From Mycolicibacterium sp. YH-1 (lineage in GTDB: Bacteria > Actinomycetota > Actinomycetes > Mycobacteriales > Mycobacteriaceae): a DNA stretch of 64,000 bases. The stretch is from the NCBI RefSeq assembly GCF_022557175.1, contig NZ_CP092915.1, positions 1,302,001 to 1,366,000 on the forward strand, written 5' to 3'. Under the pieces are notes generated by a model. The model ran no database searches. It was not told the DNA's origin and was given only the letters and a program-made list of their open reading frames with translations. Positions 49,268-55,818 of the stretch are shown piece by piece (within the stretch, counting starts at the first letter, position 1; every line of letters starts with the position of its first letter). The position numbers and the translations under genes were made by a program.

Positions 49268-49313
49268 CAGCCAGACCGCTCAGTCCGACGCGTGCAACCA
49301 CTGATCGCGGGCG

Positions 49314-49338
49314 GTTTTCGGAGCATTCTCGCGGGGTA
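49314..49338 (+). promoter_or_regulatory. SigF-type promoter of the GT2 operon
   Basis: GTTT (49314-49317), 16 bases, GGGTA (49334-49338): exact SigF consensus. Transcription would start about 49345, so the transcript has almost no leader before GTG 49349, or about 20 bases before ATG 49364. Confidence 0.7.
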
Positions 49339-49348
49339 GATACAACCC

Positions 49349-50071
49349 GTGCCCCTCCAACAGATGACCTACCAGCAGGCTGTCGTCGTCGTTCCGGCGC
49401 ATGATGAGGCGCAGCACCTACCGCTGTGTCTGAAGTCCGTCGTGACCGCGGCGGCGTGTCTGCCGATCCCGGTCCTCGTGGTGGTGGTGCTGGACTCCTG
49501 CACCGACGATTCGAAGCAGCTGTCGGGGCGTTTCGGCTCCGACGTGCACTTCGTCGAGATCGAGGCGGGCAACGTCGGTGCGGCCCGCGCCGCGGGCTTC
49601 TCGTACGCCCGGTCGACATGCGGCATGGACTCGGATCAGTCCTCCGTCTGGTTCGCCACCACCGACGCCGACAGCGTGGTGGATCCGGACTGGCTCATCC
49701 GCCAGACGGCATCGGGTGCCGACATGGTGCTTGGTGTGGTCCGCGTCGCCGATTGGCGGCGCTATCCTGCCGCGGCGATCCGTCGCTATCTCGCCGCCTA
49801 CCGGGCCAAGCGGCGGCCCGACGGCCACGGACATGTGCACGGAGCCAATATGGGCTTTCGGGCCGAGGCGTACTGGCGTGTGGGCGGTTTCGCGAACCTG
49901 CCCAACGATGAGGACGTCGACCTGGTCAGGCGGTTCGAGGAGCACGGCTACCGCATCGACCGTGACGCGCGGCTCTCGGTGGTGACCTCGGCGCGGCAGA
50001 TCGGTCGGGCGCCACGGGGATTCGCGGCGCATCTGCGCTCGGTGCAGCTCGCCCGGCAGGACCAGGTGTGA
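49349..50071 (+). CDS. family 2 glycosyltransferase
   Basis: 240 aa from GTG 49349; ATG 49364 is a shorter alternative. GT-A fold: QAVVVVPAHDEAQHLPLCLKSV, a DxD-type metal site in FATTDADSVVDPDWL, and the acceptor region HGANMGFRAEAYWRVGGF with NDEDVDLVRRFEEHG carrying the likely base. It has no membrane helix, so it works on a soluble or membrane-surface acceptor. It heads a run of four overlapping genes (overlaps of 4 bp each) under an exact SigF-type promoter. Confidence 0.88.
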   Translation: MPLQQMTYQQAVVVVPAHDEAQHLPLCLKSVVTAAACLPIPVLVVVVLDSCTDDSKQLSGRFGSDVHFVEIEAGNVGAARAAGFSYARSTCGMDSDQSSVWFATTDADSVVDPDWLIRQTASGADMVLGVVRVADWRRYPAAAIRRYLAAYRAKRRPDGHGHVHGANMGFRAEAYWRVGGFANLPNDEDVDLVRRFEEHGYRIDRDARLSVVTSARQIGRAPRGFAAHLRSVQLARQDQV

Positions 50072-51024
50072 GCCCGGAGGGCAGCAGTGTCGAACTGCTC
50101 TGGCGCTGGCTCCAGGCGGGACACCTCGACCTGCCGGTACCCGCGTCGGGACAGACCGCCGCCCGCTGGTGGAAGCTGGCCGCGATGACCGAGAACGACG
50201 TCGTGGCAGGACGATTGGCCGAGGCTCACACCGACGCCGCGGCGATCCTGACCGAACTGGACGGCCCGACGCCCGAGCGTGACCAGCTCTGGGGTGTGTG
50301 GGCTGCGGAGGTACCGGACAGTGTGGTGGTCGCCTCCGACGCTCACGACGGCGTGATGCTCAATGGAAGCAAGGCGTGGTGTTCGGGAGCCGGATTGTGC
50401 ACGCACGCACTGGTCACCGCCCGACGCGACGACGACCACCGTGGCCTGTACGCCGTCGATCTCCGCTCCGACGGTGTGCAACCAATGGCGGCGAGTTGGC
50501 GCAACGCCGGTATGCGTGACAGCGATACCCGGTCGGTGCAGTTCACCGACGTGCCCGCGGTTCCCGTCGGCGGCCCGGGGGAGTACCTGAGCCGACCCGG
50601 ATTCTGGTACGGCGCCATCGGCGTCGCGGCCTGCTGGCTGGGTGGCGCGCGAGCCGTCGCGGGCCCGCTCTACCGCGCCGTGGCCGACGAGCACAGTCCC
50701 GCATCGGCCGACGCTCACGCCCACGCGCACCTGGGTGCGATCGACGCGGCACTGGCCGCCGCCGAGGCCATGCTGGTATCCGCCGCGTGCGTGGTGGACT
50801 CCTCGCCCAATGGAGTTCGCGCCGAACTGATCGCGCGCCGAGTCCGCGCCGTGGTCGAACACGCTGTGGACGAGGCGATAACCCGCACTGGCCGGGCATT
50901 GGGCCCAGCACCGCTGGCGCTGGACGGTCGGCATGCCCAACGGGTCGCGGACCTGACGATGTACGTGCGCCAGAGCCACGCCGAGCGTGACCTCGCAACG
51001 CTGGGCCGGTTGGCGGCGCGATGA
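50068..51024 (+). CDS. acyl-CoA dehydrogenase-like protein, short
   Basis: 318 aa, against about 380 for the family. It keeps the middle and C-terminal acyl-CoA dehydrogenase parts (GVMLNGSKAWCSGAGLCTHALVTAR, FTDVPAVPVGGPGEYLSRPGFWYGAIGVAACWLGGARAVAG) but the N-terminal helical domain is reduced and the family's C-terminal Glu region is hard to place. It may bind FAD and act on an acyl-carrier or CoA ester, or have a changed role. GTG start overlaps the GT2 stop by 4 bp. Confidence 0.8.
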   Translation: MSPEGSSVELLWRWLQAGHLDLPVPASGQTAARWWKLAAMTENDVVAGRLAEAHTDAAAILTELDGPTPERDQLWGVWAAEVPDSVVVASDAHDGVMLNGSKAWCSGAGLCTHALVTARRDDDHRGLYAVDLRSDGVQPMAASWRNAGMRDSDTRSVQFTDVPAVPVGGPGEYLSRPGFWYGAIGVAACWLGGARAVAGPLYRAVADEHSPASADAHAHAHLGAIDAALAAAEAMLVSAACVVDSSPNGVRAELIARRVRAVVEHAVDEAITRTGRALGPAPLALDGRHAQRVADLTMYVRQSHAERDLATLGRLAAR

Positions 51025-51788
51025 CGACGGCGCGGATCAGCAACTGCGCCCGGTTCGCCGAGCGGTCCATCGACGGGGGCGGCACGCCGAGCAGTGCGTG
51101 GCTCGGGTGGCGTCGCGACGTCGAATCGCTGGACCTCGACGAGTGCCCAGCGTTGATCGTCGTCGCGCCCCACCCCGATGACGAGACACTGGGTTTCGGC
51201 GCGACCGCGGCGTCCCTGCGGATGCGCGGCGTGGACGTCACGGTTGTCGCCGCCAGCGACGGTGGCGGCGCCTACCCCGGCCTGTCTCCTCTGGAGCGGC
51301 GCTGGTTGGAACGCGACCGCCGTGCGGAGACCGAACTGGCGACCAGGATGCTGGGTCTGGACCCCCCGATCTGGTTGGGTCTGCCGGACGGTGAACTGGA
51401 TCGTCACGAGGATGCTCTCACCGACGTGCTGACCGAGTTCCTATCGGCCGCCGCGCCGGGATCCTGGTGTGCGGCAACGTGGCGGGGTGACGGCCACCCC
51501 GACCACGAGGCAGTCGGCCGGTCCGCTGCGGCGGCGTGCGCCGCCACGTCGTCGACACTGCTGGAGTACCCGGTCTGGATGTGGCACTGGGCCGAGCCGA
51601 ACGATGCCGACGTGCCGTGGCAGCGGATGCGCCGCCCTGTTGTGGACGGCGGCTGTTCAGTCCGGAAGCGAAACGCCGCCAACGTCTTTCGCACACAACT
51701 CGCGCCGTTCGAACCCGGTGGTGACCCCATCTTGCCGCCGTTCGTCGTGCAGAGACTTATGGCGGTCGGCGAGATGGTGTTCCTGTGA
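51021..51788 (+). CDS. PIG-L family de-N-acetylase
   Basis: 255 aa. Zinc motif VVAPHPDDETLGFG (His51, Asp53, Asp54) and the second site GDGHPDHEAVGRS complete the PIG-L/LmbE active site. Members remove acetyl groups from GlcNAc-containing compounds (GlcNAc-PI, mycothiol precursor, chitobiose). The start overlaps the preceding gene by 4 bp. In other bacteria this domain is often fused to the kind of methyltransferase that follows here. Confidence 0.9.
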   Translation: MTTARISNCARFAERSIDGGGTPSSAWLGWRRDVESLDLDECPALIVVAPHPDDETLGFGATAASLRMRGVDVTVVAASDGGGAYPGLSPLERRWLERDRRAETELATRMLGLDPPIWLGLPDGELDRHEDALTDVLTEFLSAAAPGSWCAATWRGDGHPDHEAVGRSAAAACAATSSTLLEYPVWMWHWAEPNDADVPWQRMRRPVVDGGCSVRKRNAANVFRTQLAPFEPGGDPILPPFVVQRLMAVGEMVFL

Positions 51789-52426
51789 CAGGGCGGCTTT
51801 CCGACAGCTACTTCGACGATATGTATGCGGCGTCGCCCGACCCCTGGCAACTCGCAGAACGGTGGTACGAGGCGCGCAAGTACGCGATCACCATGGCGAT
51901 GCTGCCGCGGCGGCGCTTCCGGCACGCGTTCGAGCCGGGCTGCTCAGTGGGCGTGCTCACCGAGATGCTGAGTCAACGGTGTGACCGGGTGACGGCCACC
52001 GACGTCGCGAGGGTGGCGCTGGAGAGTGCCCGCAAGCGGCTGTCTCACGGTGACCGGTTCGACGGCGTCACGCTGCTCCAGTCCTCCCTCGACACGCCCT
52101 GGCCCGCCGACGTCGATCTGGTCGTGCTGTCCGAGGTGGGCTACTACCTCGACGCACCCTCGCTGCGCGCCGTGCTAGCCCGAGAGTGTCCTCGACTGCC
52201 GCGCGGGGCCACGCTGATCGCGGCGCACTGGCGCCATCGGGTCGATGACTATCCGCTCACAGGTGACGAGACCACCGACATCGTGGCGCACACACCCGGA
52301 TTACACCTGCAGGCACGCTACCTCGACGATGACGTCGTCATCGGCCTGTTCAGCGTCGGTGCGACGCCGTCGGTGGCCGCCAGCACCGAGATTCCCGGCG
52401 CGTTCAACCCGCCGGAGGATCACTAG
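51785..52426 (+). CDS. NodS-like SAM-dependent methyltransferase
   Basis: 213 aa, GTG start overlapping the PIG-L gene by 4 bp. It matches the NodS group: SYFDDMYAASPDPWQLAERWYEARKYAITMAMLPRRRF, SAM motif I AFEPGCSVGVLTEML, VTATDVARVALESARKRL, and LVVLSEVGYYLDAPSLRAVL. NodS N-methylates a de-N-acetylated glucosamine in Nod factors. With the GT2 and de-N-acetylase genes this suggests a modified amino-sugar product. The stop at 52424-52426 abuts the next SigF-type promoter. Confidence 0.88.
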   Translation: MTGRLSDSYFDDMYAASPDPWQLAERWYEARKYAITMAMLPRRRFRHAFEPGCSVGVLTEMLSQRCDRVTATDVARVALESARKRLSHGDRFDGVTLLQSSLDTPWPADVDLVVLSEVGYYLDAPSLRAVLARECPRLPRGATLIAAHWRHRVDDYPLTGDETTDIVAHTPGLHLQARYLDDDVVIGLFSVGATPSVAASTEIPGAFNPPEDH

Positions 52427-52427
52427 G

Positions 52428-52452
52428 GTTTCCGCACTCGGTCACCCGGGTA
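52428..52452 (+). promoter_or_regulatory. SigF-type promoter of the secreted 150-aa gene
   Basis: GTTT (52428-52431), 16 bases, GGGTA (52448-52452): exact SigF consensus. It begins 1 bp after the methyltransferase stop. Predicted leader about 55 bases to ATG 52512. Confidence 0.75.
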
Positions 52453-52511: not shown

Positions 52512-52964
52512 ATGGCCTCACGACACCGAGTGCGGGAACGGGGACTCAGCGGGGCGAATTTCACGATTGCGGCAATCTCAGCGGCCGTCGTGTTCGCCGC
52601 GGTGGTCTCCGCGGCTGTCGTGTACTTCATCGGGTCCACGGTGTCCTACGCGGGTGACGCCGCTGATTCCGTCGCTCCGCCTCCGCAGACCGTCGGCCTG
52701 GAGGGCACGATAGTTGCCGTATCGGCAGATTCGGTGACCGCACGCGGCGTGGACGGCCGGGACCGCACCTACCTCGTCAACGCCGACACCACGGCGATCA
52801 CCGGTACCAGCGGTCAGGTCGACAGTGCCGGTTCGGCTTTCGCTGTCAACGACGAGGTGTCCATCGTCGGCGTCATGGTGGACGGCACGCCCGTCGCGAC
52901 GGCCGTCGCTCACCGTTCGGTTTCGAACCTGAACGGGCCGCCGATGGACTACGCGCTCCCGTAA
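52512..52964 (+). CDS. membrane-anchored beta-domain protein (DUF5666-like)
   Basis: 150 aa from ATG 52512 (GGAGAAGGA upstream). A helix at about 17-42 (FTIAAISAAVVFAAVVSAAVVYFIGS) anchors it; the outer part has an OB-like repeat, VGLEGTIVAVSADSVTARGVDGRDRTYLVNADTTAITGTSG, resembling DUF5666. Function unknown; it is placed under an exact SigF-type promoter, so stress-induced envelope protein is the best description. Confidence 0.75.
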   Translation: MASRHRVRERGLSGANFTIAAISAAVVFAAVVSAAVVYFIGSTVSYAGDAADSVAPPPQTVGLEGTIVAVSADSVTARGVDGRDRTYLVNADTTAITGTSGQVDSAGSAFAVNDEVSIVGVMVDGTPVATAVAHRSVSNLNGPPMDYALP

Positions 52965-52976
52965 CCCAGTGCGTCC

Positions 52977-53339
52977 CTACTGCGCAGCGTCGCGCAGACC
53001 TGTCAGAGCGGCCTCGACCGACGGGTAGAGGGCGAGGAACTCGTCGAGGCGGGTCAGTTGAATCGGCCGTGCCGTCACCGGGCCGGTGGCCACCACGGCG
53101 AATCTGCGCGAACCGCCCAGTCGTTCGTGCGTCTCGGCGAGGATCCGCAGCCCGACGGACGCCAGGAACGTCACCGCGGTGAGATCGATGACGACGCCGC
53201 CAGGACCGTCGTCGAGCAATTCGGTCAAGAGGTTCTCCAGGGCTGGCGCGGTGGCGAGATCCACAACACCGTCGACCGTCAGTACGGTGACATCGTCCCG
53301 TCGCTCAACAGAGGTCGAGATCCCATCATCTGATGACAA
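52977..53339 (-). CDS. STAS-domain anti-anti-sigma factor (RsbV-like)
   Basis: 120 aa from a TTG at 53339 (GGAGGGA upstream). STAS fold with the phosphorylation site Ser61 in LTAVTFLASVGLRIL. Unphosphorylated, such a protein binds the RsbW-type kinase and frees a sigma factor. It is divergent from the RsbR-S-T-X-UW operon and is the most likely substrate of the fused kinase/phosphatase encoded there. Confidence 0.92.
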   Translation of the reverse strand: MSSDDGISTSVERRDDVTVLTVDGVVDLATAPALENLLTELLDDGPGGVVIDLTAVTFLASVGLRILAETHERLGGSRRFAVVATGPVTARPIQLTRLDEFLALYPSVEAALTGLRDAAQ

Positions 53340-53508
53340 CGGCCATCCCTCCCTCTCCCGTGGCGCATCACAACACCATTCCCTGCGCGAGCCTAGTGCC
53401 CGCCGACACCCGCTGAGATAATTCGAGTCCTCGGCTCGCCGGGTGTCGTCAGGCTAATGTCGAATTCGGCGATGCGCAGAGTCGTGCACGGCCCGGTGGG
53501 AGAGCGGA

Positions 53509-54372
53509 ATGTCTGAGGAATTGTCGATCGATGCGGTATCCGGTGAGGGTTTGCTACCTCAACTGGTCAAACACCTCAGGCAGAACCGCACCGTGCTCCG
53601 CGAGGAGTGGGCTCGCCGCATCACCGAGGCGCAATTGCTGACCGCGATGACACCCGAGGAACTCTTCGGCGAGGCCACCGCGGTCTACGACAACTACGTT
53701 GAGGTGCTCGAGACGGGCAGCGTTGAGGCGCTGCAGGCCTACGCCCGCGACCTGTCCGAGCGCATCATTCCCCGAGGTGTCGAGACCGACGAGGTGCTCG
53801 GCATCGTGCTGCTGTTGCGCGACGTCCTCGCGCGCTCGCTGTTCGAGAAGTACCAGACCGACTTCGACCTGCTCAACCGCGTGCTCGACGCCTACGAGCC
53901 AGCCGCCAACCGCATCGCAAACACCGTGGGTGTCAGCTTCGTTCAGGAGCGCGAGCGCATCATCCGTCAGCAGCAGGAAGCCATCCGCGAGCTGTCCACC
54001 CCGGTGCTCCAAGTGCGCGAGCAACTGCTGATTCTGCCGATCATCGGCGTGCTCGACAGCCCCCGCGCCCGCCAGCTCACGGAACAGTTGTTGCGGGCGA
54101 TTCGCGCCAACCGCGCCAAGGTCGTCGTCATCGACATCACGGGTGTGCCGACCATCGACTCGACGGTGGCCAACCACCTGGTGCAGACGGTCGACGCGTC
54201 GGGTCTCATGGGCGCCAACGTCATCATCACGGGCCTGTCCTCTGACATCGCGCTCACTCTGGTGACAATCGGCCTGGACCTGTCGAAGATGAACGCGGTC
54301 GGCGATCTGCAGGGTGGCATCGAGGAGGCCGAACGCCTTCTCGGCTACGAGGTCACTCGCGCCGGCGAGTAG
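53509..54372 (+). CDS. rsbR: RsbR-type stressosome protein
   Basis: 287 aa, ATG 53509. The N-terminal half (about 1-150) is a helical sensor (non-haem globin-like/RsbRD_N fold); the C-terminal half (about 165-280) is a STAS domain with IDITGVPTIDSTVANHLVQTVDASG. The position of the key Thr in RsbRA of Bacillus is Ser218 here; Ser184 stands near the second regulatory site. RsbR and RsbS make the megadalton stressosome that holds RsbT until stress. Confidence 0.9.
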   Translation: MSEELSIDAVSGEGLLPQLVKHLRQNRTVLREEWARRITEAQLLTAMTPEELFGEATAVYDNYVEVLETGSVEALQAYARDLSERIIPRGVETDEVLGIVLLLRDVLARSLFEKYQTDFDLLNRVLDAYEPAANRIANTVGVSFVQERERIIRQQQEAIRELSTPVLQVREQLLILPIIGVLDSPRARQLTEQLLRAIRANRAKVVVIDITGVPTIDSTVANHLVQTVDASGLMGANVIITGLSSDIALTLVTIGLDLSKMNAVGDLQGGIEEAERLLGYEVTRAGE

Positions 54373-54396
54373 CTCGCCAGACGGTCACGGAATCTC

Positions 54397-54789
54397 ATGC
54401 CAGTACCCATCCTCAAGCAGGGCGCCATCCTCATCGCGACAGTGCAGGCGGCCCTGACCGACTCCGATACCGAGCGGCTGCGCCAGGACCTGATGGAGCG
54501 GGTCAGCCGGTTCCGCGCGCGCGGCATCATCGTGGACGTCACGGCGATCGATGTCATGGACTCCTATGCGGCGCGGTCGTTGCGCACCATCGCGCACATG
54601 ACTCGACTGCGTGGCGCGGACACCGTGATCGTGGGTCTACAGCCCGAGGTCGCCTTCGCGATGGTGCAGCTCGGACTCGTCTTTGACGGGATGCACACCG
54701 CGCTCGATCTCGAGGAGGGGCTGGCGCTGCTGCACCGGCAACTGGCATCGAGTCGAGAACCGGTGATCGGCCGAGACATTGACGACTGA
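54397..54789 (+). CDS. rsbS: RsbS-type stressosome scaffold protein
   Basis: 130 aa. A single STAS domain with the phosphoacceptor in DVMDSYAARSLRTIA: Ser56, matching Ser59 of Bacillus RsbS. It forms the stressosome core with RsbR and is phosphorylated by RsbT, which then leaves to activate RsbU. The stop overlaps the RsbT start by 11 bp. Confidence 0.93.
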   Translation: MPVPILKQGAILIATVQAALTDSDTERLRQDLMERVSRFRARGIIVDVTAIDVMDSYAARSLRTIAHMTRLRGADTVIVGLQPEVAFAMVQLGLVFDGMHTALDLEEGLALLHRQLASSREPVIGRDIDD

Positions 54790-55198
54790 ACAGCCCGCCG
54801 TCACCGTCGTCGACGTGAACGACTCGGACGACATCGTCACCGCGCGACAGGCGGGTAACCAGCTCGCACGGGACCTCGGCTTCTCGCTGACCGACGTCAC
54901 GATGATCGCCACCGCCATCTCCGAGATAGCCCGCAACATCACGAGTTACGCAGGCAGAGGCGCCATCCGCATCGACGTGCAGGTCCGCGACGGGCGCCGT
55001 GCGCTGGTGGTGCGCGCCGAGGACGAGGGCCCGGGAATCCACGACGTCGATCGCGCCATGGAGGAGGGCTATTCGACGGGTCGTGGCCTCGGGCTGGGGC
55101 TGCCCGGTGCTCGACGCCTGATGGACAGGCTGACCGTGGACTCGGTGCCCGGCCGCGGCACCGTCATCGAGATGTGGAAGTGGACGCCGGAGCGGTGA
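54779..55198 (+). CDS. rsbT: RsbT-type serine/threonine kinase
   Basis: 139 aa from TTG 54779. GHKL ATPase: N-box ATAISEIARNITSYAG (Glu49, Asn53), G1 EDEGPGI, G2 TGRGLGLGLPGARRL. It phosphorylates RsbS and RsbR and activates the RsbU-type phosphatase downstream. The TTG start lies inside the rsbS end, an unusual start fixed by the overlap and the ribosome-like site GGCCGAGA is weak; ATG or GTG alternatives within 20 codons are absent. Confidence 0.9.
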   Translation: MTTEQPAVTVVDVNDSDDIVTARQAGNQLARDLGFSLTDVTMIATAISEIARNITSYAGRGAIRIDVQVRDGRRALVVRAEDEGPGIHDVDRAMEEGYSTGRGLGLGLPGARRLMDRLTVDSVPGRGTVIEMWKWTPER

Positions 55199-55818
55199 AC
55201 GACAGCGGACGCATCGGACCCATCGAGTGGGCAGTCGCCGCGCGCCCACTGCCTGGGCAGGACGCGTCCGGTGATCAGGCCATCGCCGTCGCGGTAGGCC
55301 CGGGGGCCGCCGTCTTCGGCGTGATCGACGGACTCGGTCACGGCCCCGCCGCGGCGGTGGCGGCACGACGCGCGGTCGCCGTTGTCGGCGAGCACCGGGG
55401 TGAGTCCCTCGAGGCGATGGTGACGCATTGTCACCGCGAGCTGGCGAGCACCCGTGGCGCGGCGATGACTCTGGCCCGCATCGACTTCACGACCAGCACT
55501 GTGAGGTGGGTGGGTGTGGGAAACGTCGCCGCGAATCTCGTCGCCCGTGCACCGAGCGGGTTGGCGACGAGTTCCTCGGCACTTCTGGCCGGCGGAATTG
55601 TGGGTTCTGAGTCGCTGCGCGTCCACTCGTCAGATTCGGTCGAGATGCGCCCGGGCCACCTGCTGGTGATGACCAGCGACGGCATCACCGATGACCATCT
55701 CGACGCGGTCGACTTCGGTGCACCCGCCGAGACGATTGCGGAACGGATTCTGCGGGAACACTGCCGCGTGACCGATGACGCGCTCGTCCTCGTTGCCAGG
55801 CACCGAGGCACTCTCTGA
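55195..55818 (+). CDS. rsbX: RsbX-type PP2C phosphatase
   Basis: 207 aa from GTG 55195, overlapping rsbT by 4 bp; a start at 55174 would overlap more. SpoIIE/PP2C fold: VFGVIDGLGHGPAAAVAARR (metal-binding Asp) and LLVMTSDGITDDHL (second Asp). RsbX removes phosphate from RsbR and RsbS and resets the stressosome. Overlaps the next gene by 1 bp. Confidence 0.9.
   Translation: MNDSGRIGPIEWAVAARPLPGQDASGDQAIAVAVGPGAAVFGVIDGLGHGPAAAVAARRAVAVVGEHRGESLEAMVTHCHRELASTRGAAMTLARIDFTTSTVRWVGVGNVAANLVARAPSGLATSSSALLAGGIVGSESLRVHSSDSVEMRPGHLLVMTSDGITDDHLDAVDFGAPAETIAERILREHCRVTDDALVLVARHRGTL

Follow-up and report, generated by a model that had tools for sequence, protein, structure and literature searches.

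A conserved four-gene module behind a predicted SigF-type promoter in Mycolicibacterium sp. YH-1 is a candidate pathway to a small N-methylated amino-sugar glycoside

Several described systems share parts of the enzyme set considered here. The NodB-NodS steps of the rhizobial Nod factor have their counterpart in a NodS-like methyltransferase standing beside a de-N-acetylase, which is of NodB type in one lineage; however, none of the four module proteins matches a NodC or NodA family, the scores remain below the NodS and NodB equivalog cut-offs, and the module adds a flavoprotein of the acyl-CoA dehydrogenase (ACAD) fold and a putative stress-type promoter. The mycothiol and bacillithiol pathways (MshA-MshB, BshA-BshB) likewise combine a glycosyltransferase with a PIG-L deacetylase, but the module has a family 2 glycosyltransferase (GT2), no recurrent ligase among its clustered neighbours, and a methyltransferase and a flavoprotein in addition. 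The flavoprotein shares its fold with both FadE-type ACADs and flavin monooxygenases of the DszC/TdsC type (high Z to DszC and TdsC). KijD3 and DnmZ are amino-sugar N-oxygenases acting on nucleotide sugars of antibiotic pathways; the module protein is shorter (318 aa) than these and than DszC/TdsC, and scores above the cut-off of no NCBIfam model. Finally, the mycofactocin glycosyltransferase MftF is the best NCBIfam match of the GT2 (E 1e-9), with a score of 37.8 bits where the model requires 280.

The window, i.e., the whole analysed stretch of 64,000 nucleotides (NZ_CP092915.1, positions 1,302,001 to 1,366,000), carries four adjoining genes on its forward strand. They encode the GT2 (49349–50071, 240 aa; Pfam PF00535, Glycos_transf_2; alternative ATG at 49364), the short ACAD-fold flavoprotein (50068–51024), for which we propose a flavin monooxygenase function, a PIG-L (LmbE-like) de-N-acetylase (51021–51788, 255 aa; PF02585) and a NodS-like SAM methyltransferase (51785–52426, 213 aa; PF05401). 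By ORF coordinates every adjoining pair overlaps by exactly 4 bp, as the preliminary description had stated; these overlaps suggest translational coupling, while the fixed stoichiometry that it had read from them does not follow. On the same strand, a SigF-type site, GGTTT-N16-GGGTA, is located at 49313–49338 and is followed after 10 bases by the GTG start of the GT2 gene, so that there is indeed almost no leader.

A passage of PMC4694148 gives the SigF consensus as GTTT-N14-19-GGGTA, which the window site fits close to the gene start. The strict motif occurred in 98 of 20,000 random 181-base windows, and in four of 38 upstream regions of mycobacterial operons against a background of 0.42%. 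It was present in six of 74 upstream regions, although L011 and L045, counted separately here, are one locus. Given these low counts among all and among mycobacterial regions, the predicted promoter looked clade-specific. Near the start, the 38 mycobacterial regions contained sites of the forms GTTTAA-N-GGGAA and GGTGTGAAA-N-GGCTA. A wider SigF-like motif, built from these sites of the same 38 regions and hence chosen post hoc, was present just upstream in 30 of the 38 loci against a background of 2.5%. It was missing in L012, L016, L068, L073, L046, L065, L075 and L061, of which L012 has a strict site further up; three duplicate loci (L045, L066, L077) were left out of the 38-locus count. The site in the window is probably more than a chance match. 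In M. smegmatis the GT2 gene MSMEG_1097 is strongly SigF-dependent (PMC4694148); as at most a possible ortholog of the window gene, it was given no weight.

All four genes were found in 56 of 148 genomes of the same genus, in 54 of these 56 within 6 kb. Of 33 relatives fetched on the basis of their PIG-L, 27 had the complete set, as did 56 of 80 named loci selected through the ACAD-like protein. Gene order was shuffled among the 33 relatives, and in five of them PIG-L and methyltransferase form a single frame; the shuffling and the fusions together indicate that what selection maintains is the set rather than a fixed order. The conserved four-gene arrangement with such fusions, which the preliminary description had proposed to look for, was recovered as a co-occurring set with fusions, the order itself being reshuffled. 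Its restriction of the undescribed cluster to mycobacteria proved too narrow, since the reshuffled set crosses phyla and occurs in other actinobacteria, in proteobacteria and on one Nostoc plasmid. Neighbour clustering of 35 loci showed the four module genes to be common to nearly all, some further clusters being judged shadow ORFs and ignored, and the ACAD-like gene lay near the methyltransferase in 24 of the 25 phylum-scan loci tested (L170–L194). Two clusters without it (L038 and L040) belong to one genome, G030, which has an ACAD-like gene elsewhere; another cluster (L133) is without PIG-L. Judged by their sequences, the four genes are a real and conserved module. The enzymes are of known kinds; for their combination and product we found no earlier description, and for none of the enzymes an assay, among the open-access papers listed in our searches, as judged by titles and the beginnings of abstracts.

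The GT2 matches Glycos_transf_2 with 51.9 bits (Pfam cut-off 23.3), and its residues D106, D108 and E188 are invariant in all 21 aligned sequences. PIG-L scores 83.9 bits against a Pfam gathering cut-off of 28.2. Its residues H51, D54, E55, D157, H159, D161 and H162 are invariant in 23 of 23 aligned proteins and D53 is nearly so; we take the HPDDE and HPDH motifs to be the metal-binding and catalytic residues. Within NCBIfam it comes closest to BshB1, BshB2 and MshB, with equivalog scores (45.5, 40.9 and 31 bits) that fall short of the cut-offs (182.5, 195.25 and 224.35 bits).

The window cluster has no NodB-type (CE4) deacetylase, its deacetylase being PIG-L. In another lineage a CE4 deacetylase replaces PIG-L: 11 of 12 fetched loci have the order CE4-ACAD-MT-FAD reductase-GT, and the CE4 gene is present in all 12. 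In the three of 12 loci examined, the CE4 protein belongs to PF01522 and has NodB as its best NCBIfam match (E 1e-30 to 1e-35); 11 of the 12 CE4 proteins have all five motifs intact. Eight of the 11 genomes with CE4 loci have no PIG-L relative at 1e-8. The exchange for a NodB-type enzyme lends independent support to a sequence of de-N-acetylation followed by N-methylation, and indirectly supports deacetylation of an N-acetyl sugar by PIG-L. NCBIfam matches of both deacetylases and of the methyltransferase are all far below cut-off.

The methyltransferase itself exceeds the gathering cut-off of Pfam NodS (52.2 bits; cut-off 24) and does not reach that of the NCBIfam NodS equivalog (54.6 bits; cut-off 300). 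A profile of its family matched NodS 3ofj with E 7e-29 and the PDB entry 4isc ('Methyltransferase') with E 1e-63. No NodC family was among the Pfam and NCBIfam matches of the GT2 at E 1e-3, and no NodA acyltransferase family was found by Pfam and NCBIfam in the four window proteins, nor in five flanking proteins, for one of which the best 25 of 36 matches were considered. The Nod-like chemistry suggested earlier is thus retained for the deacetylation and N-methylation steps, which the CE4 exchange supports, and given up for a Nod factor proper.

The ACAD-like protein matches only the middle domain of ACADs (Acyl-CoA_dh_M, PF02770; 41.5 bits, cut-off 33.3); the N-terminal and C-terminal Pfam domains gave no match in the window protein. 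At the position of the catalytic glutamate in the YEGT motif all 22 family proteins have Gln, followed by Ser, His or Gln in the next column, whereas five FadE proteins of the same genome have Glu there (a sixth, L211, was left out because of a wrong frame). Some ACADs carry the catalytic glutamate elsewhere. With both the YEGT glutamate and the two terminal domains missing, we reject the acyl-chain role proposed for this gene in the preliminary description. A structure was predicted for the ACAD-like protein only; in the structure search ACADs and monooxygenases tied, so that its resemblance to flavin monooxygenases of the DszC/TdsC type is as strong as that to ACADs. DszC ranked first in Foldseek, KijD3 and DnmZ were among the 50 matches listed, and a CSGA motif is common to the protein and DszC. 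The sole NCBIfam matches of the window protein, SfnB and a hydroxyphenylacetate hydroxylase oxygenase, are far below cut-off; a variant from L198 has DszC as its best match (31.5 of 850 bits). The CE4 operons also encode an FAD/NAD reductase, and the single one tested is HcaD-like. We read these matches, the CSGA motif and the reductase as hints of an oxygenase.

We propose, with a probability of about one half, that the genes form a self-contained, stress-induced biosynthetic module for a small N-methylated and probably flavoenzyme-oxidised amino-sugar glycoside; we infer its substrates, order of steps and product as follows. The GT2, probably cytosolic, would add an N-acetyl-amino sugar to a small acceptor. 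PIG-L, or the NodB-type enzyme in one lineage, would take off the acetyl group, and the NodS-like enzyme would methylate the freed amine. The ACAD-fold flavoprotein, most likely an FMN/FAD monooxygenase, would then oxidise the product at or near that nitrogen. The resulting small amino-sugar glycoside would be produced, alongside trehalose and catalase, when cells reach stationary phase, dry out or face oxidative stress. A dedicated amino-sugar pathway appears somewhat probable; the chances of the N-methylation step are evenly balanced, and those of the monooxygenase role stand equally for and against. A bolder version, for which the odds are unfavourable and which we offer only tentatively, would have a mobile four-enzyme cassette, controlled by the general stress sigma factor and able to use either of two deacetylase types, make a phylum-spanning, unnamed class of stress metabolites for survival of drying and oxidation, namely N-methylated and N-oxidised amino-sugar glycosides, possibly trehalose-based. 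If either version is true, an overlooked part of bacterial survival of drying and starvation would extend from mycobacteria to plasmid-bearing Acinetobacter, as a small-molecule pathway sometimes travelling with trehalose and catalase genes, and Nod-type 'deacetylate then N-methylate' chemistry would exist outside symbiosis. The cassette is small enough for transfer to a laboratory host with a mass spectrometry readout.

The same enzymes could instead tailor the envelope under stress, modifying an amino sugar of a polysaccharide, a glycolipid or a peptidoglycan-linked glycan with no free small molecule. The Novosphingobium version has three further glycosyltransferase genes (one of GT4 type), as polysaccharide loci do, and the EcfG targets that PMC6599016 names for Sphingomonas melonis include several glycosyltransferases and an exopolysaccharide gene, which may or may not belong to the module cluster. 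However, the Pfam matches of the four window proteins include no domain for membranes or secretion and, judged shadow ORFs aside, no neighbour family beyond the four genes exceeds six of 35 loci, so that we consider this reading rather unlikely. Alternatively, PIG-L and the methyltransferase could act on a redox cofactor or a molecule resembling a thiol, with the flavoprotein as its oxidase; this would agree with the BshB/MshB matches and with the catalases near some clusters. MshA and BshA are glycosyltransferases of GT4 type. The module enzyme is a GT2, no ligase family recurs among the clustered neighbours and the equivalog cut-offs are missed by far, which makes a thiol-like product very improbable.

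To a lipo-chitooligosaccharide resembling the Nod factor, with the ACAD-like gene working on the acyl chain, as the strong form of the earlier proposal had it, we give almost no credence: NodS-like and NodB-type genes do occur together in one lineage, but the four proteins have no NodC or NodA family match and the dehydrogenase glutamate is absent. It is also conceivable that the ACAD-like protein works on its own as a stress enzyme, with the pathway consisting of GT2, PIG-L and the NodS-like enzyme only. It is the sole module gene left in 13 of the 148 genus genomes and is accompanied by PIG-L alone in 11. In six orphan loci it is under purifying selection (15 pairs, dN 0.05–0.15, dS 0.31–1.22; part of this divergence may predate the loss of the other genes), and may therefore have a role outside the pathway. 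Furthermore, GT-PIGL-MT clusters without an adjoining ACAD-like gene exist in G030 (L040) and G123, which both have one elsewhere. Its place near the methyltransferase in nearly all phylum-scan loci and its movement with the set across phyla speak against this separation, which we regard as improbable. A genome-wide check for PIG-L at nine named orphan loci gave six mycobacteria with distant relatives only; L111 is not a true orphan, since its genome has a strong PIG-L relative elsewhere (E 1e-71).

In viral contigs, 85 pattern matches were found but none proved to be a relative, and phage origin or spread of the module was rejected. One of two protein searches, both used for breadth only, was limited in its scoring to the 7,999 candidates with the most words in common. 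Catalase, the next neighbour judged real, lay near only six of the 35 clustered loci, which we counted against a stress context. Trehalose and catalase are textbook bacterial stress protectants. Among 11 annotated records from the plasmid collection, three have neither gene type and likewise count against that context; eight have trehalose and/or catalase genes in the stretch shown and, like the SigF-like sites, count for it. On two Comamonas plasmids the module is enclosed by trehalose genes, in the order otsA-ACAD-PIGL-MT-GT-otsB.

Four genes on the forward strand of the window encode a family 2 glycosyltransferase (GT; 49349–50071), a short ACAD-fold flavoprotein (ACAD-like; 50068–51024, Pfam ACAD middle domain), a PIG-L protein (51021–51788) and a NodS-like methyltransferase (51785–52426). 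Each adjacent pair has 4 bp in common and all Pfam matches scored above the cut-off, which bears out the operon with 4-bp overlaps proposed in the preliminary description. The putative SigF-type promoter proposed with it was also recovered: the site GGTTT-N16-GGGTA lies 10 bases upstream of the first start codon and agrees with the SigF consensus in the available passages of PMC4694148. The closest named relatives are from mycobacteria (Mycolicibacterium hodleri, 75% for the ACAD-like protein).

A second site of the same form is located at 52427–52452, directly behind the operon and before a gene (52512–52964) for a small protein that had no match in a Pfam search. Further downstream, next to the operon, Pfam revealed a stressosome-type regulatory block (52977–55818) that begins with a STAS gene on the minus strand, followed by RsbR-like STAS, RsbS-like STAS, RsbT-like HATPase and SpoIIE-type phosphatase genes; the Rsb names are our presumed assignments. 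Among 38 mycobacterial loci, a SigF-like site was found within 100 bases upstream of the GT gene in 30, compared with 2.5% of random windows, a figure inflated because this wider motif was broadened once the upstream sequences had been inspected; the strict published consensus was found in four of the 38 against a background of 0.42%. In M. smegmatis, strong dependence on SigF is reported for the GT2 MSMEG_1097 in passages of PMC4694148, and this gene also appears in lists from a zinc-homeostasis study and a spray-drying study.

Following an initial survey of 61 genomes, tblastn analysis of 33 loci chosen by PIG-L revealed the complete four-gene set in 27 and a fusion of PIG-L and methyltransferase in a single open frame in five. 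The expected conservation of the set is thus upheld, but not that of a fixed order, since gene order varies among these loci and the genes sometimes lie on both strands. When loci were chosen by the ACAD-like protein, 56 of 80 named loci were complete. The cleanest count comes from 148 genomes of the genus (threshold E 1e-30): 60 contained the GT, 84 the ACAD-like gene, 70 PIG-L and 59 the methyltransferase, and 56 had the complete set, 54 of these inside 6 kb. Pairwise Fisher tests gave 7e-18 to 5e-32, values that overstate co-occurrence because related genomes are not independent. In the phylum sample (246 genomes) the methyltransferase profile matched 26, and an ACAD-like gene was located near the methyltransferase in 24 of 25 loci, the exception being L183 (L170–L194, mostly with about 1.5 kb of flank). 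Judged from these sequences, the four genes form a module. The methyltransferase match of genome G133 (C124:2012255–2016847) is broken in two, with about 4 kb between the halves, owing either to an insertion or to the assembly.

Within this phylum there is a lineage in which no PIG-L was seen at the locus; of the 26 genomes matched by the methyltransferase profile, 14 from family f32 and one from f23 belong to it. Twelve loci (L195–L206) were fetched from 11 of these 15 genomes, and 11 of them carry, all in one direction, genes for a CE4 deacetylase, the ACAD-like protein, the methyltransferase, an FAD reductase and the GT, with fragmented matches in L201 (ACAD-like and reductase) and L196 (reductase). 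The twelfth, L199, contains only CE4 and methyltransferase; the complete copy in its genome is L200. Pfam assigns the CE4 protein to the polysaccharide deacetylases, and in three of the 12 its best NCBIfam match was examined and proved to be NodB (E 1e-30 to 1e-35; 105–123 bits, under the cut-off of 240). TFDDGP, HCxxH, RxPWG, DxxDW and LxHD, which we take to be the NodB homology motifs, are all present in 11 of the 12 proteins. Eight of the 11 genomes lack any PIG-L relative at 1e-8 genome-wide, and the remaining three contain weak ones (best 5e-15). PIG-L and CE4 deacetylases have unrelated folds and the same kind of activity. The swap of these unrelated types beside the same partner genes is our strongest argument for de-N-acetylation as the reaction at this step. 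It also brings NodB-type and NodS-like genes together in an actinobacterial lineage.

The methyltransferase family profile matched 4isc, an entry named only 'Methyltransferase', at E 1e-63, and NodS 3ofj at E 7e-29, with DPW and E-x-x-YYL in common. The window protein, however, reached 54.6 bits with the NodS equivalog, far under the cut-off of 300, so N-methylation by this NodS-like enzyme is only plausible. Of the Nod-like chemistry suggested earlier, de-N-acetylation is retained in view of the PIG-L/CE4 swap, but none of the four window proteins matched a NodC or NodA family in Pfam or NCBIfam, which means that the product is probably not a Nod factor.

Relatives of the ACAD-like protein were also found in 47 plasmid records, 19 of them from Acinetobacter. 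Fourteen records, picked for diversity and including two from Acinetobacter (L124 and L131), were scored with the four module profiles, and 11 contained the complete set. By this scoring PIG-L was weak in L125 (28 bits, beyond a catalase gene) and absent from L133, and L130 had the ACAD-like gene alone. Trehalose and/or catalase genes accompany the module in eight of 11 annotated records inspected (none were seen in those of Kitasatospora, Methylobacterium and Pandoraea). The eight are from Acinetobacter johnsonii, Cupriavidus basilensis, Novosphingobium, Legionella lytica, Paracoccus and Roseivivax, together with two Comamonas plasmids that carry otsA-ACAD-PIGL-MT-GT-otsB as a single run. Since catalase was near only six of 35 loci in a wider set, this link is real but not general. 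On the Acinetobacter plasmid L124 the module occurs with catalase and otsAB, with IS elements close by, possibly a mobile drying-tolerance island. On a Nostoc plasmid (L136) the ACAD-like, PIG-L and NodS-like genes follow one another and a GT lies on the opposite strand, and the module thus extends to cyanobacteria.

The most likely product of the module is a small N-methylated amino-sugar glycoside, formed under stress. More tentatively (probability about 0.3), it may represent a phylum-spanning class of stress metabolites, N-methylated, N-oxidised amino-sugar glycosides, possibly trehalose-based, made by a mobile four-enzyme cassette with interchangeable deacetylases. The kinds of enzyme are already known and their combination is new to us; among the open-access matches listed, judged by title, start of abstract and passages, none described the module.

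Partial loss bears on the role of the ACAD-like protein. Its gene is the sole survivor in 13 of the 148 genus genomes and is left with PIG-L only in 11; three of the 84 matches contain a stop codon. In six named mycobacteria (L056, L058, L062, L063, L074, L083) the orphan gene is intact, GT and methyltransferase are absent from the locus, where the search was made, and PIG-L relatives elsewhere in the genome are distant (best E 2e-13 to 4e-12). Orphan genes gave dN 0.05–0.15 and dS 0.31–1.22 (15 pairs; closest pair L062/L074, 0.05 and 0.31), and those of six complete loci dN 0.06–0.14 and dS 0.68–1.15 (15 pairs). The orphans are under purifying selection, which argues against the ACAD-like protein serving this pathway alone.
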